Shown piece by piece: positions 18,868-27,247 of a stretch of 36,839 nt of DNA. The notes beneath the pieces were generated by a model that was not told the origin of the DNA, made no database searches, and saw only the letters and a list, made by a program, of their open reading frames with translations. Both the position numbers and the translations under genes were made by a program. Location of the stretch: contig JAAZGT010000139.1 of NCBI GenBank assembly GCA_012511095.1, positions 1 to 36,839 of the forward strand. Reading direction: 5' to 3'. Source of the stretch: Alcaligenaceae bacterium (GTDB lineage Bacteria > Pseudomonadota > Gammaproteobacteria > Burkholderiales > Burkholderiaceae_B). Positions within the stretch are counted from its first letter, which is position 1; every line of letters begins with the position of its first letter.

Positions 18868-20913
18868 CTATTCTGATGATAAAACGCGCACCGAACCCTC
18901 AACCACATTCGCCCCAAAATTTTCTTTTAAGGTTTTGATAAATGGGTCATTAGCAACGCGCTCTTCTGCTTGTTTTTGTCGATCTTTTTGCTCTTTAATT
19001 AATTGAGCTCGCGCTGTGGCATCACCCGTCTCACCACTTTCAAAATTTAACTTAATGACTCGAGAAAAATACTCTGTCAACGCTGTCGTTAAGCTTGCTT
19101 TAATAGCAAACTCATCGACATTTTTTAGAGAAATCTTAAGATAAATGGTACTGCCTTCGGTCGCCACCCATTGGCTATTGAGTAATAACTCACCCGCTAA
19201 ACCAGGCAAGGCTAAACGCTTGGTCAACTCAATCCAGCTCTCTTGATTCAGCATCGATAAAGTGATTTTATCGTCAGCTTCGGTTGATTGAGGCTCCCAC
19301 GCCATATCGAAGCTTGCATCTTGTAAAGGCTCATCAGATATATCACCATCAAAGTCATCGGGCAAGGCTCCATACATAATCGCCCAATCAGCATCTGACA
19401 TGGATGCAAGCTCACCGTTAGTAGTATGGTTGTTGCTTGCTTGCACCACCTGATTTTGCTCTTGTGATATGACACTGGCTGCGGGGGTGGGTGTAATTTC
19501 ATTAGGTAGAACCGTATCTACTACATCCACTGCGGCTATTTCGCCTGTAGTGTGTGTGGCGTCATTTTGATGAAACTCCTCTGGAGTTTCATCAGCAGGA
19601 GTTGCTATTGAAGCGGATTCAGATAGCTCTGCTTCGACGTTAGAATCCACAGGTGTGGCAGCAGTCACCGTTTCATCTGGCGGACTCACAACTGTGACCG
19701 CTTGATCTGACTCTGATTCAGTCTCTAGTGCTTGCTCAGGAAGTTTTTTTTTAGACTCTTCGTTGGTTGAACTATCGGCGCTAGGTGCCACCGAAGTTGA
19801 AGACTTTTTAGTCTCGGCTTGAATGGCTGGCGTATTAACTAAAGCCAACATGCGTAGGCAAATCATCACAAAGCCTGAATACTCATCAGGTGCTAAGGCT
19901 AATTCCTTGCGACCATGAACGGCAATGCTATAGAAAAGCTGTAGTAGATCGTGATTAGCACTTTGCACAACCTCTAAAATATCGTTGTACAAAGGATCAT
20001 CGCTATCAAGCGTGCCTGCCAAACGTTGCTCCATCGCAATACGCGATAAAAGCACCGCTAAATCAGCTAAAGCGCCCTCATAGGAAAAACCACGATCGGC
20101 AATGGCATCAGCTAAAGCAACCACGGTGCTCGCATCACCTGCTAATAAGGCTTTAATTAAATTAACTAAATAGCTTTGATCGATGGTGCCAAGCATATCT
20201 TGCATGGCTTGCACGGTAATACGATTACCACTAAATGCAATGGCTTGATCCGTTAAAGATAAGGCGTCTCGCATGGAACCAGCGGCACCACGCGCGATGA
20301 GCTGTAAAGCGGCATTGTCATATTCGACCTTTTCCTCGGCTAAGAGCACTTCTAAATGCTCTACTACCGCCTCGGGTGACATCTGTTTTAGGTTGTATTG
20401 AATACAACGTGATAAAACAGTCACTGGAATCTTTTGGGGGTCGGTGGTTGCCAAAATAAACTTTAGATGCGCTGGCGGCTCTTCGAGCGTCTTTAACATG
20501 GCGTTAAAAGCGTGAGTCGTCAGCATATGCACCTCGTCAATCGTATAAATTTTAAAACGACCGCGAGAAGGTGCATAAATGGCTTGCTCTAATAAAGGTG
20601 TAATCTCATCTACACCACGTCTAGATGCTGCATCTACCTCGACATAATCTACAAAACGGCCCTGGTCGATTTCCACACAAGCAGAACACTTGCCACATGG
20701 GGTGGAAGTAATACCAGTTTCACAGTTAAGGGATTTTGCGAGGATGCGTGCTAAGGTTGTTTTACCGACTCCGCGAGTACCAGTAAATAACCACGCATGA
20801 TGAATTCTTTGAGTATCGAGCGCATTTGATAATGCACGAACCACATGATCCTGGCCAACTAATTCCGAAAATGAACGAGGACGCCACTTACGGGCAAGGG
20901 CTAAATAATTCAT
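18868..20913 (-). CDS. dnaX: DNA polymerase III subunit tau (and probable gamma)
   Basis: LARKWRPRSFSELVGQDHVVRALSNAL, GTRGVGKTTLARILAKSLNC, zinc-binding Cys cluster, DEVHMLTTHAFNAMLKTLEEPP. Confidence 0.97.
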   Translation of the reverse strand: MNYLALARKWRPRSFSELVGQDHVVRALSNALDTQRIHHAWLFTGTRGVGKTTLARILAKSLNCETGITSTPCGKCSACVEIDQGRFVDYVEVDAASRRGVDEITPLLEQAIYAPSRGRFKIYTIDEVHMLTTHAFNAMLKTLEEPPAHLKFILATTDPQKIPVTVLSRCIQYNLKQMSPEAVVEHLEVLLAEEKVEYDNAALQLIARGAAGSMRDALSLTDQAIAFSGNRITVQAMQDMLGTIDQSYLVNLIKALLAGDASTVVALADAIADRGFSYEGALADLAVLLSRIAMEQRLAGTLDSDDPLYNDILEVVQSANHDLLQLFYSIAVHGRKELALAPDEYSGFVMICLRMLALVNTPAIQAETKKSSTSVAPSADSSTNEESKKKLPEQALETESESDQAVTVVSPPDETVTAATPVDSNVEAELSESASIATPADETPEEFHQNDATHTTGEIAAVDVVDTVLPNEITPTPAASVISQEQNQVVQASNNHTTNGELASMSDADWAIMYGALPDDFDGDISDEPLQDASFDMAWEPQSTEADDKITLSMLNQESWIELTKRLALPGLAGELLLNSQWVATEGSTIYLKISLKNVDEFAIKASLTTALTEYFSRVIKLNFESGETGDATARAQLIKEQKDRQKQAEERVANDPFIKTLKENFGANVVEGSVRVLSSE
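19744..19752 (-). promoter_or_regulatory. A9 slippery run in dnaX (candidate programmed frameshift or transcriptional slippage site)
   Basis: Minus strand TCT AAA AAA AAA CTT CCT GAG; the -1 frame gives ACT TCC TGA. Confidence 0.6.
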
Positions 20914-24000: not shown

Positions 24001-24489
24001 GGTATCGATTTGTTGGATGGTTTTAAAGGCAGCTTCACGATATTGACGGTCACGCGATTCGGAAATCTCTAAGCTCCCACCTGTCTGTGAAGACCATGGC
24101 ATGGTGCGCACTAAACCCGAACTCAGAGAGTCAAAAGTCATAATGCGTAAACGACTTGGATATTCTAATAAATGCCATTCTTTATCTGCGTTGCGCTCTA
24201 ATACCTTTTGAGCTAAAAGCCAGCTACTTAATTTGTGTTCTTCAGTTGGTTCGGGCCCACGTCCAGCTATGAGCTTTTCAAGTACACGATTACGCATTTC
24301 ACCAGCCGCTTTACGGGTAAAGGTAATCGCTAGAACCTGCTCGGGTTGCTCAACAATTGCTAAAAGCGAAAGGATACGGTCAGTCACCAGCTCGGTTTTA
24401 CCTGAGCCTGCAGGCGCTTGTACTAAAAATGATGCATCGGGTTGTAGCGCACGTTGGCGCTCCGCCATATCAGAAGGTTGTTTAGTCAT
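21055..24489 (-). CDS. addA: UvrD-like helicase with C-terminal PD-(D/E)XK nuclease (AddA-like)
   Basis: QAPAGSGKTELVTDRIL Walker A, VDEFQDTSQAQ, FLVGDPMQSIYRFRKAEV, MTIHKAKGLQFEEV, VVDYKSS nuclease motif. Start moved to MTKQPSD at 24489, preceded by AGGAGG. Confidence 0.9.
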   Translation of the reverse strand: MTKQPSDMAERQRALQPDASFLVQAPAGSGKTELVTDRILSLLAIVEQPEQVLAITFTRKAAGEMRNRVLEKLIAGRGPEPTEEHKLSSWLLAQKVLERNADKEWHLLEYPSRLRIMTFDSLSSGLVRTMPWSSQTGGSLEISESRDRQYREAAFKTIQQIDTFPELQAVLDHLNVDLEHLEGSLVEMLKIRDQWQDALSDPSNTIAVMVQSLDLLIQRALEKVTSRLPLGFNSDYIPLLAVWAQEWPAYECLKDVDINPLTTESDDLERWQAVADSLLTKENTIRKSLTKSQGVPAGSTYRKGLLDYLNNSNFTPDFIEALSTLKYLPKELLTANQAQLYKNLASVLKASLEQLHQVYIDDGAVDFTEVALSALNGLGSADEPADLLLAMDARIQHLLVDEFQDTSQAQIKLLGLLTSGWQANDGRTVFLVGDPMQSIYRFRKAEVGLFIKVADEKKINHVDLEVLNLRENFRSVEGIVEWNNQVYQQSFPSEYDMEFGAVPYEFSVSFNGPGDGDPVTHYPFYWSAKTIPGIDNKDEALEAAEQRVVEVAQEALERQQGREKPVAILVKSRTALGRLNERLLQANIPVRAVEMFPLSEQPYVIDLLQIIRALSYRFDRVAWLSLFRSPLCGLTLQSLHSLFGDKSEPNVLKQIRTALDNEIACEQKLGAEQFKRFKHICEVMLNANAEQQGLSFTMRVSMIWQQLGGHLLYSKPSEKADIESVFALLDKLAPYGTPDLDVLEEHISELYAESLTSDSAVEIMTIHKAKGLQFEEVILFGLDKGSPGVSKMLLSLEPYEYELGGELLPGVLISTAPSKQHEAAEDVMSNLLKRREEYRQALEEARLFYVATTRPCQRLHLFYRIALKDDKKGLEVVKPSKRQFLSCIEQALEYDTEVIKQALPEYQKHMAGDVAVEMEPIQVEVAEVAAQTNDFVRFKQATIDQLKEHYAPHRQIGLQLSKEAATQAGTWEFLDEDDAILGTVTHRWLQMMGLDRLKKWDEERLNQGHSLMRYQLMSAGYNEEGLNDAVKRLQQLLIKCLQHEELRALLMNPQVQHEWPLYDVDGKLLIMDLVVPHDDHWEVVDYKSSRRREGESIEDFKQRMIREYLPQLEAYCAYLQDIDGKKAKASLFLIEEGSFVEVIS

Positions 24490-27247
24490 TTTGATTTTCC
24501 TCCTCATCAAGCTTTTGCCCCAAACGTAGAAAAGGCAAAACCTCACAATATCTCATATCATTTATGTTGCTATAGCAGTTGGCTGCATAACCATCGGCAA
24601 TTTCTTGAGCCAAACCCAAAATGACATCCTTCCATATTTGTAGCTGCTGCTCGAAGCCAGCTGCGTCTTTAACCTCAACACCACTCTTAGCTCTACCCTT
24701 AGGTTGCAGTGACCAATCAACTGAGCCAATGCCGGCAAAACCCATGGCATTAGGCTTTAAACCCGCAAAACCCACACCGCTAATCTCACTCGTTGGGTAA
24801 TCGCCATAAGCCGCATACAATGGAAGCTGCAAATCAATTGGTCTTTCTCTATACCAACTATTTTTATAATTAGGTAAGTTACCTGTTTTGTAGTCTAGGT
24901 AAACAAAGCTGTCATTGTCTAAGTAATCAATGCGGTCGACTTTGACCCTAAGCTTAATATTTGAAACCATAACCTCAGCACTTTTCTCAACCTCTTCTAC
25001 CCTAAAGCTATGGTCGCGCTCTTGCTCCATACTCAGGAAATAATAGAGCTGACTTTTGGCAAAGTTTTTTTCCAACTCGAGTAAGGCCTTTGAATCAAAA
25101 AGCAGTTCGCTCTTGGCGCATTTTTCGACCACCTCACTAATCTTGGCATTGAGTGTCGCTTGGTCCATCGCTTTTAAAGTCACTTGGTCTTGTACATCAC
25201 GCCAAAACTCCTCTAAGGCAGCGTGGATGAAGTTTCCTCGTTGCAAACGATCTAGCTCATATCGCGGATAAGGACAGAACTCCTCCATATGTAAACGATA
25301 GGTAGCAAAAGCCCATTGAGGATTAATAGCTTGCAGATCAATGAGGCGCGAACCGCCTTTGAGTAGCCCATCAACTTTAGGACCATAATTATCGCTAAGA
25401 TACTCTAACTCGACCTCTGTTGCCGTCTCAACGCTCTGAGTAGCATCCGCCCCCTCTAAGGCTTCGTCATTTAGATCTCGCCACTGATCTTCAGCTAAGT
25501 ATTGAGCCAATAAAGGCGAAGCCTTGGTCGGCATTTCACCACTAAAGGCGTGCCAACTAATGTTGATTTCAGGTGCTGTTTCTAAGAGACTACGTAGCAT
25601 TAATTCTGCCCATACAAATTCGCGTTGATGGTCAGAACGCGGAGCACCCACTCGCTGGAGCGCCGTTTTTGGAATTAGAGGGTTAGGCTTAGGCACTGTT
25701 GGCAAGACATCATCTTGCATACTTAAAATCCACACTGCATCCCATTTTGCGGCTTCGGCTTCTAACATACCCAGCACATCGAGACGTGCTGTAGCTGCAC
25801 GCTGTGGCTGGAACAGCTGTTGCTTGCAGAAACGTTCAAATAAATAAAAGGCCTCAGCTGCTGTCATCTTATCTAAGACAGGCGATAAAGCGGTGGCGTT
25901 TTTAAGAGCTTGCTCAAAGGCATGACAAACTTGATATTGCACAGAACTCAATTTAGGCAGTCCAGGGAATTGGAAGACAGCTAAAAAGTGTTTGAATTTT
26001 TGCAGCCATTGATTTAAGCTTAAACTACTGGCATTGGAGAAAATCTCTGTAGCAGTCTCAACCAGAGCACTAAACTCATCCGATATATCGTAGAAAAACT
26101 TTAGCACTTGATTTTTGCTATAACTAATCCGACTTTCTCTACGCAAACCACGATCGATTTTTGTGAGTTCATCAGCATAATTCGACATCAAGCCCTCTTG
26201 TGCTAATAGCAATGACTCACCCAAGACATGGGTGGCGATACGATTATTTTGTTCTAGCTTGATGAATAAACCCAACCACGCTAAAGCAGAGCGCACAATG
26301 GACCAATCGCTTAAAGCTCGGCCAATAGCTACGTTATAGAGCAAATCCGTTTTAAGACCAGACTCTTGAATTTGCTCATGCAAATAACGTCGTACAGTAT
26401 CGACCTCTGTTTGCAATAAAGGGTCAATAATCGCAAAGTGACCTTGGGGATTATCATTTAGTTTTTGCTTGGCCCACGCTACTGCAGCCGCTAACTCCTG
26501 ACTGCGACTATGCGCACTACGTACCTGTAGCCCTGCTACTTGGCTAGCTTCTGGCTCTAATACATAAAGCTTAGCCCCTAAGGAATGACAATGCTTTAAT
26601 AAAGCCTGTTGAAAGGCGGATAACTCATTAAAACCTAATAAAACAATCTGTTCAGAAACGAGTTTTGATTTATAAGTTGGGGCAAAATCTAGGCTACCCT
26701 GCTGCTCATCCTCAGCGCTGTACTCGACAAACTCAACACATTGCTCTAATTGATTTAATAACCATTGGTCTCTTAATGGCCCGTCAATGACGTCACGATC
26801 TCTTAGTCTTTGCAGATAATGCTCACGGATATTTTTATACTCGGTGTACTCGGGCGTTTCCTCAGTGCCATCGACCTCAATAGCCCATTCAAGCTGCAAA
26901 CTATGAGCATCGGCCAACACCTTAGCTAATTTTGTGAGGTTTAAAGTAATTAATTGCTGCTCTTCGAGAACTGCCTCCCAATATAATAAGGAGGCAAAAT
27001 GACTAAGTTGCTTAGAAGCAGGCAGCTCACCTAAGACAAAAATCACTTGCTCATTTAGCGACTCTACGAAGTTTGACCAAGGTTGTATCTGAGCTAATTC
27101 GAACACCTTTGTGTGACTCCGATTAGCCTCAATTAAAGTCTTTTTTAATTGAATGGCCATACGGTTATTGACCGTGATCACCGTGGTACTTGCTGGATCT
27201 AAGTCCAACAGCTCTTGCCTTGAAATTCGTATTAAACTATCTAGCAT
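24482..27247 (-). CDS. addB: AddB-like PD-(D/E)XK nuclease / probable DNA repair protein
   Basis: No Walker A in the N-terminal part (degenerate helicase), FCPYPRYELDRLQRGNFIHAALEEFW, VDRIDYLDNDSFVYLDYKTG nuclease motif; overlaps the addA start. Confidence 0.82.
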   Translation of the reverse strand: MLDSLIRISRQELLDLDPASTTVITVNNRMAIQLKKTLIEANRSHTKVFELAQIQPWSNFVESLNEQVIFVLGELPASKQLSHFASLLYWEAVLEEQQLITLNLTKLAKVLADAHSLQLEWAIEVDGTEETPEYTEYKNIREHYLQRLRDRDVIDGPLRDQWLLNQLEQCVEFVEYSAEDEQQGSLDFAPTYKSKLVSEQIVLLGFNELSAFQQALLKHCHSLGAKLYVLEPEASQVAGLQVRSAHSRSQELAAAVAWAKQKLNDNPQGHFAIIDPLLQTEVDTVRRYLHEQIQESGLKTDLLYNVAIGRALSDWSIVRSALAWLGLFIKLEQNNRIATHVLGESLLLAQEGLMSNYADELTKIDRGLRRESRISYSKNQVLKFFYDISDEFSALVETATEIFSNASSLSLNQWLQKFKHFLAVFQFPGLPKLSSVQYQVCHAFEQALKNATALSPVLDKMTAAEAFYLFERFCKQQLFQPQRAATARLDVLGMLEAEAAKWDAVWILSMQDDVLPTVPKPNPLIPKTALQRVGAPRSDHQREFVWAELMLRSLLETAPEINISWHAFSGEMPTKASPLLAQYLAEDQWRDLNDEALEGADATQSVETATEVELEYLSDNYGPKVDGLLKGGSRLIDLQAINPQWAFATYRLHMEEFCPYPRYELDRLQRGNFIHAALEEFWRDVQDQVTLKAMDQATLNAKISEVVEKCAKSELLFDSKALLELEKNFAKSQLYYFLSMEQERDHSFRVEEVEKSAEVMVSNIKLRVKVDRIDYLDNDSFVYLDYKTGNLPNYKNSWYRERPIDLQLPLYAAYGDYPTSEISGVGFAGLKPNAMGFAGIGSVDWSLQPKGRAKSGVEVKDAAGFEQQLQIWKDVILGLAQEIADGYAANCYSNINDMRYCEVLPFLRLGQKLDEEENQND

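Follow-up and report, generated by a model that had tools for sequence, protein, structure and literature searches.

A conserved run of nine adenines in dnaX of an Alcaligenaceae bacterium points to probable transcriptional slippage and a predicted gamma-like clamp-loader subunit

The window analysed here, the whole stretch of 36,839 nucleotides from an Alcaligenaceae bacterium, contains a dnaX gene with nine consecutive A's in its coding strand. This raises the question of whether the gene gives rise to one protein or to two and, in the latter case, which enzyme slips. Our reading, to which a probability of roughly 0.7 is assigned, is that dnaX of the window would yield two products in the way known from Thermus: RNA polymerase would slip on the A9 run, and both tau and a gamma-like form would be made. 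In the proposed mechanism, the number of A's in the transcripts would vary (8, 9, 10 or more) owing to slippage during copying of the run. Where this number is nine, or exceeds nine by a multiple of three, translation would continue to the end of tau (681 aa); transcripts off by one or two would meet a stop within 2–5 codons, giving a gamma-like clamp-loader subunit of about 392–395 aa that keeps domains I–III and has lost most of the tau linker together with the polymerase-binding domain. That slippage takes place, that gamma is produced and that polymerase rather than ribosome is the main slipper are what we infer from the comparisons below.

The A9 tract and its predicted products

The open reading frame matched TIGR02397 (dnaX_nterm) at 419.8 bits against a cut-off of 250. 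The Pfam model for domain III, DNA_pol3_gamma3, ends at residue 363, 25 codons short of the A9 run. A preliminary description of this DNA had located the run where the domain I–III core gives way to the linker, and the Pfam boundary at 363 with the run at 388–390 agrees with this. The position of the tract, its codon numbers, the reading frames and the stops in both alternative frames, all claimed in that description, were reproduced from the sequence (Table 1), and the 681-aa tau and 392-aa short form proposed there are, as predicted products, what the gene encodes. In translation of the window sequence, a transcript with one extra A ends in KKKTS* after 392 aa and one lacking an A ends in KKNFLSKH*, while a ribosomal +1 shift after the run would read TTC CTG AGC AAG CAC TAG. 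As domain III ends at residue 363 and domain V occupies residues 545–675, the predicted short form would be a complete domain I–III protein; domains I–III are predicted to be common to tau and the gamma form, and domain V is predicted to be missing from the latter.

Table 1. Features of the dnaX locus in window coordinates.
Feature	Position	Strand	Basis
dnaX, DNA polymerase III subunits gamma/tau, 681 aa in frame 0 (tau)	18868..20913	minus	ORF, TIGR02397, Pfam
Domains I–III (AAA+ ATPase, lid, domain III), codons 1–363	19825..20913	minus	Pfam PF13177, PF22608, PF12169
Variable linker, codons 364–544	19282..19824	minus	alignment of seven congeners
A9 slippery tract, codons 388–390 AAA AAA AAA	19744..19752	minus	read directly from sequence
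TGA stop, -1 frame (one extra A, or ribosomal -1 shift), two codons past run	19736..19738	minus	
TAG stop, +1 frame (one A missing, or ribosomal +1 shift), five codons past run	19725..19727	minus	
Tau C-terminal domain V (alpha-binding), codons 545–675	18889..19281	minus	PF12170 DNA_pol3_tau_5, E 5e-11

A ybaB gene lies downstream of dnaX. A small SRP RNA gene (RF00169; 20938–21035, minus strand) lies upstream of it, 24 bases from the start codon of dnaX. Elsewhere in the window, AddB-like (TIGR03623) and AddA/RecB-like helicase open reading frames overlap by 65 bases (24482–24546, minus); this overlap may be a start-site artefact, the downstream frame having been called from GTG.

Conservation of the run in the genus and across Burkholderiales

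The closest named relatives are Oligella urethralis and Alcaligenaceae MAGs. Conservation of the run in close relatives had been named beforehand as a check on the two-product proposal, and exactly nine in-phase A's were found in dnaX of 7 of the 8 genomes of the genus, O. urethralis included. In six of the seven other congeners the run lies in phase 0 at codons 387–394; the outlying congener G004 (L026), whose core is 75% identical, has no run of nine in its dnaX. When the seven A9-bearing genes of the genus, that of the window among them, were aligned around the run, no block but KKK was common to all of them, the linker being otherwise variable. In each of these seven, translation shifted to -1 meets a stop (TGA, TAA or TAG) after exactly two codons, and a +1 shift meets one 3–5 codons past the run. 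Taken singly, these close stops are only mildly unusual within the genus (P 0.07–0.21 each).

Such a pattern might also be expected if KKK were kept for the protein or simply by descent, the run having no role in decoding. KKK is indeed conserved as protein, and A-rich codons are common here, AAA accounting for 64% of the Lys codons in the open reading frames of the window. The codon choice at KKK is however unlike that of other conserved lysines. Among the 16 Lys columns common to six congeners, AAA is used without exception at the three that form A9, whereas only 1 of the other 13 columns shows it throughout; a single codon is retained across all six species at just 19% of conserved residues. 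Synonymous shuffling of the codons of each gene gave a probability of obtaining AAA AAA AAA, and these probabilities multiply to 2e-5, a value that makes the case look too strong since the species are related. A neutral lysine patch also leaves unaccounted for the lack of any other coding A9 in the assembly, the excess at length nine alone and the near stops in both frames in other genera, described below, and we consider it improbable.

The scarcity of such runs was evaluated in the host assembly (1.79 Mb, 89% complete), where no more than three separate A/T runs with a length of at least nine were found by pattern search; by a rough scaling up of the window shuffle, about 98 would be expected genome-wide. 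Of the runs found in this incomplete assembly, that of dnaX alone is coding, the other two being intergenic: one between purA-like and hisZ-like frames of L096 (gene names by reading) and one between the frames ending at 899 and 1109 of L098. Scarcity of A/T runs of nine in coding sequence is a sign of a slippage-prone polymerase. The frequency of A9 within the window was rejected as evidence, as a single run is unsurprising by shuffling (1 observed against a mean of 2.0 in dinucleotide shuffles).

The survey was extended to Burkholderiales by taking one dnaX from each of 119 out of 121 genomes, the partial matches in G057 and G077 being excluded. In the part of the genes behind the core, 195, 67, 21, 7, 4, 17 and 2 runs of A were counted for lengths 4 to 10, respectively, compared to 184, 59, 17, 8.5, 3.7, 4.7 and 1.1 under a synonymous-shuffle null for the same genes. 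Length nine alone is thus in excess, with 17 observed and 4.7 expected, and the other lengths roughly fit the null. Runs of nine or longer were present in 19 genes, where 5.9 were expected and the maximum in 200 shuffles was 10. These 19 runs lie in three codon phases, and 16 of them are no more than about 32 codons from the end of domain III, the other three being farther downstream. Behind the core of the 119 genes, runs of T or G did not reach eight, and a single C8 was found. Taken together, the conservation among congeners and the excess at length nine place A9 well beyond chance.

The distance to the next stop was evaluated with one genome per genus and with the genus of the window left out. 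Compared with other positions in the linkers of these genes, the distance from the run to the stop is shorter in the -1 frame (P = 5e-5) and in the +1 frame (P = 5e-5). These observations also bear on the possibility that gamma arises through cleavage of tau by a protease, the A9 being incidental. Such processing is known in Caulobacter, another proteobacterium (PMC5009743), but it would leave the length of the run, its codon choice and the out-of-frame stops without a reason, and is regarded as very improbable here. A9 or A10 linker runs in other genera were recorded at L036, L064, L065, L069, L077, L088, L094, L125, L143 and L146; they occupy phases 0, 1 and 2, and the genes at L077, L094 and L125 have a GC content of 66–68%.

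Counting against slippage are the 100 of the 119 sampled dnaX genes in which a run of nine or longer is absent, and congener G004 with no run of nine. This means that the product is either not universally needed or made in another way in these organisms. On a quick core tree the state of the run changes at least nine times, the tree being weakly supported and gains not being told apart from losses.

Polymerase or ribosome

The two-product outcome could also result from programmed -1 ribosomal frameshifting at A_AAA_AAA, as in Escherichia coli dnaX, which would give the 392-aa form ending in KKKTS. The heptamer is contained in every A9 and its phase is suitable, and all seven A9-bearing genes of the genus share the -1 stop two codons on. 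Furthermore, tRNA-Lys(UUU) was the sole Lys tRNA in the incomplete tRNA lists for G000, G002 and G007, and E. coli shifts in that same setting. Seven A's would however suffice for the heptamer, yet runs of seven and eight show no excess while nine does. The more shift-prone A_AAA_AAG (PMC5009743) is not used at the site in the genus, where all seven genes have AAA AAA AAA with C or G as the next base. Frameshifting in the -1 direction moreover leaves the near +1 stops unexplained.

Stimulatory elements were sought on both sides of the run. Downstream, no hairpin was found in the genus as a group (z means of -0.2 to +0.7), one being seen only in L007; the mean z near 0 is in line with the earlier remark that a convincing downstream stimulatory hairpin is lacking. 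Upstream, no Shine-Dalgarno-like element 10–14 nt from the run is common to all seven by reading; GAGG or GAAGAG occurs near the run in five of the seven congeners and is absent in two (by eye, unscored). The missing downstream structure counts against -1 frameshifting, which on all these points we judge to be an unlikely main source of the short product, although ribosomal shifting at A_AAA_AAA may add to it.

Polymerase slippage is favoured because the runs are of exactly nine, lie in all three phases, have near stops in both directions, use AAA and not AAG, and have no hairpin downstream. The same points strengthen the preliminary lean toward transcriptional slippage, which would be the predicted route. 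On the other side, E. coli RNA polymerase slipped less on A than on T runs in a reporter study, and some A-run slippage was below detection (PMC6260861).

Structure upstream of the run was also considered. The mean z in the genus was -1.4 to -1.75, compared to -0.43 at other linker sites, with heterogeneity between genes. Strong hairpins ending 0–5 nt before A9 are predicted in L003, L004, L035 and L062, that of L003 having 10 bp and directly abutting the run, and upstream hairpins are absent or weak in the window gene, L005 and L006. A nascent-RNA hairpin adjoining the run stimulates polymerase slippage in a Roseiflexus IS630 element (PMC5009743), and a similar role for upstream hairpins in the genus is suggestive only. 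The hairpins of L003, L004, L035 and L062 resemble the layout of intrinsic terminators.

Inverted genes, recurrence and known systems

A different layout was found in genus g23 of the same family. There the frame-0 open reading frame stops 3–5 codons after A9 and domain V (PF12170) is in the -1 frame, at loci L058 (G063, 328–1937) and L062 (G029, 999–2581), which represent two species. Read from these sequences, gamma is encoded in frame 0 in g23 and tau only after a shift. The ybaB- and recR-like open reading frames downstream of the g23 dnaX are intact. Inverted dnaX of this kind, with gamma in frame 0 and tau made by a shift, was described by Antonov et al. as a GeneTack cluster of 17 genes (PMC3711429). 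The window gene is alike in having a poly-A run in the dnaX linker; it differs in that tau is in frame 0 and no frame-0 stop follows right after the run. A single base can turn one layout into the other (PMC5009743), and the occurrence of both in one family is what would be expected from such interconversion.

It appears fairly probable from the survey that polymerase slippage at dnaX runs of exactly nine A's has been gained or lost repeatedly across Burkholderiales, in GC-rich genomes and in inverted form as well, and that gamma is a switchable, re-evolved trait. If true, the presence and absence of gamma could be compared between related genera. The need of bacteria for the gamma subunit has long been disputed (PMC5009743), and a clade in which A9 is present, absent or inverted depending on genus provides natural pairs in which to ask what gamma does. 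Slippage that leads to truncation only was found hard to predict from sequence in a 2005 survey (PMC1088944); an excess at one run length offers a simple way of testing sequences for programmed slippage of that kind. The literature searched contained no report tying dnaX slippage to Oligella, Taylorella or Burkholderiales and no description of the order-wide A9 pattern in dnaX, the Thermus-type mechanism itself being known.

Compared to E. coli dnaX, the window gene is alike in that the gamma form, predicted in the window, ends soon after a mid-gene lysine slip site. The slip sites differ, however, being A_AAA_AAG in E. coli and AAA AAA AAA in the window, and the downstream stem-loop of E. coli has no counterpart in the window gene. 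For the upstream Shine-Dalgarno stimulator of E. coli, no conserved equivalent was seen in the genus by reading.

The closer likeness is to Thermus thermophilus dnaX, in which a stretch of nine A's is the slippage site and stops lie close by in each of the other two frames (PMC5009743). Both genes have a sense-strand A9, tau in one frame-0 open reading frame and near stops in both frames (PMC5009743, PMC1088944). Conserved 9A run length among homologues is a stated criterion for purposeful slippage (PMC1088944), and conserved run length is found for the window gene along with A9 in a frame-0 tau and stops in both shifted frames. Under-representation of A/T runs of nine in host coding sequence, a further Thermus-type trait, was seen as well. 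The T. thermophilus run is seven-eighths into the gene, whereas that of the window is just after domain III, at about 57%, and T. thermophilus has two Lys tRNAs, compared to only tRNA-Lys(UUU) found in the group of the window. The likeness is one of sequence, and on its account slippage of the Thermus type is predicted for the window gene.
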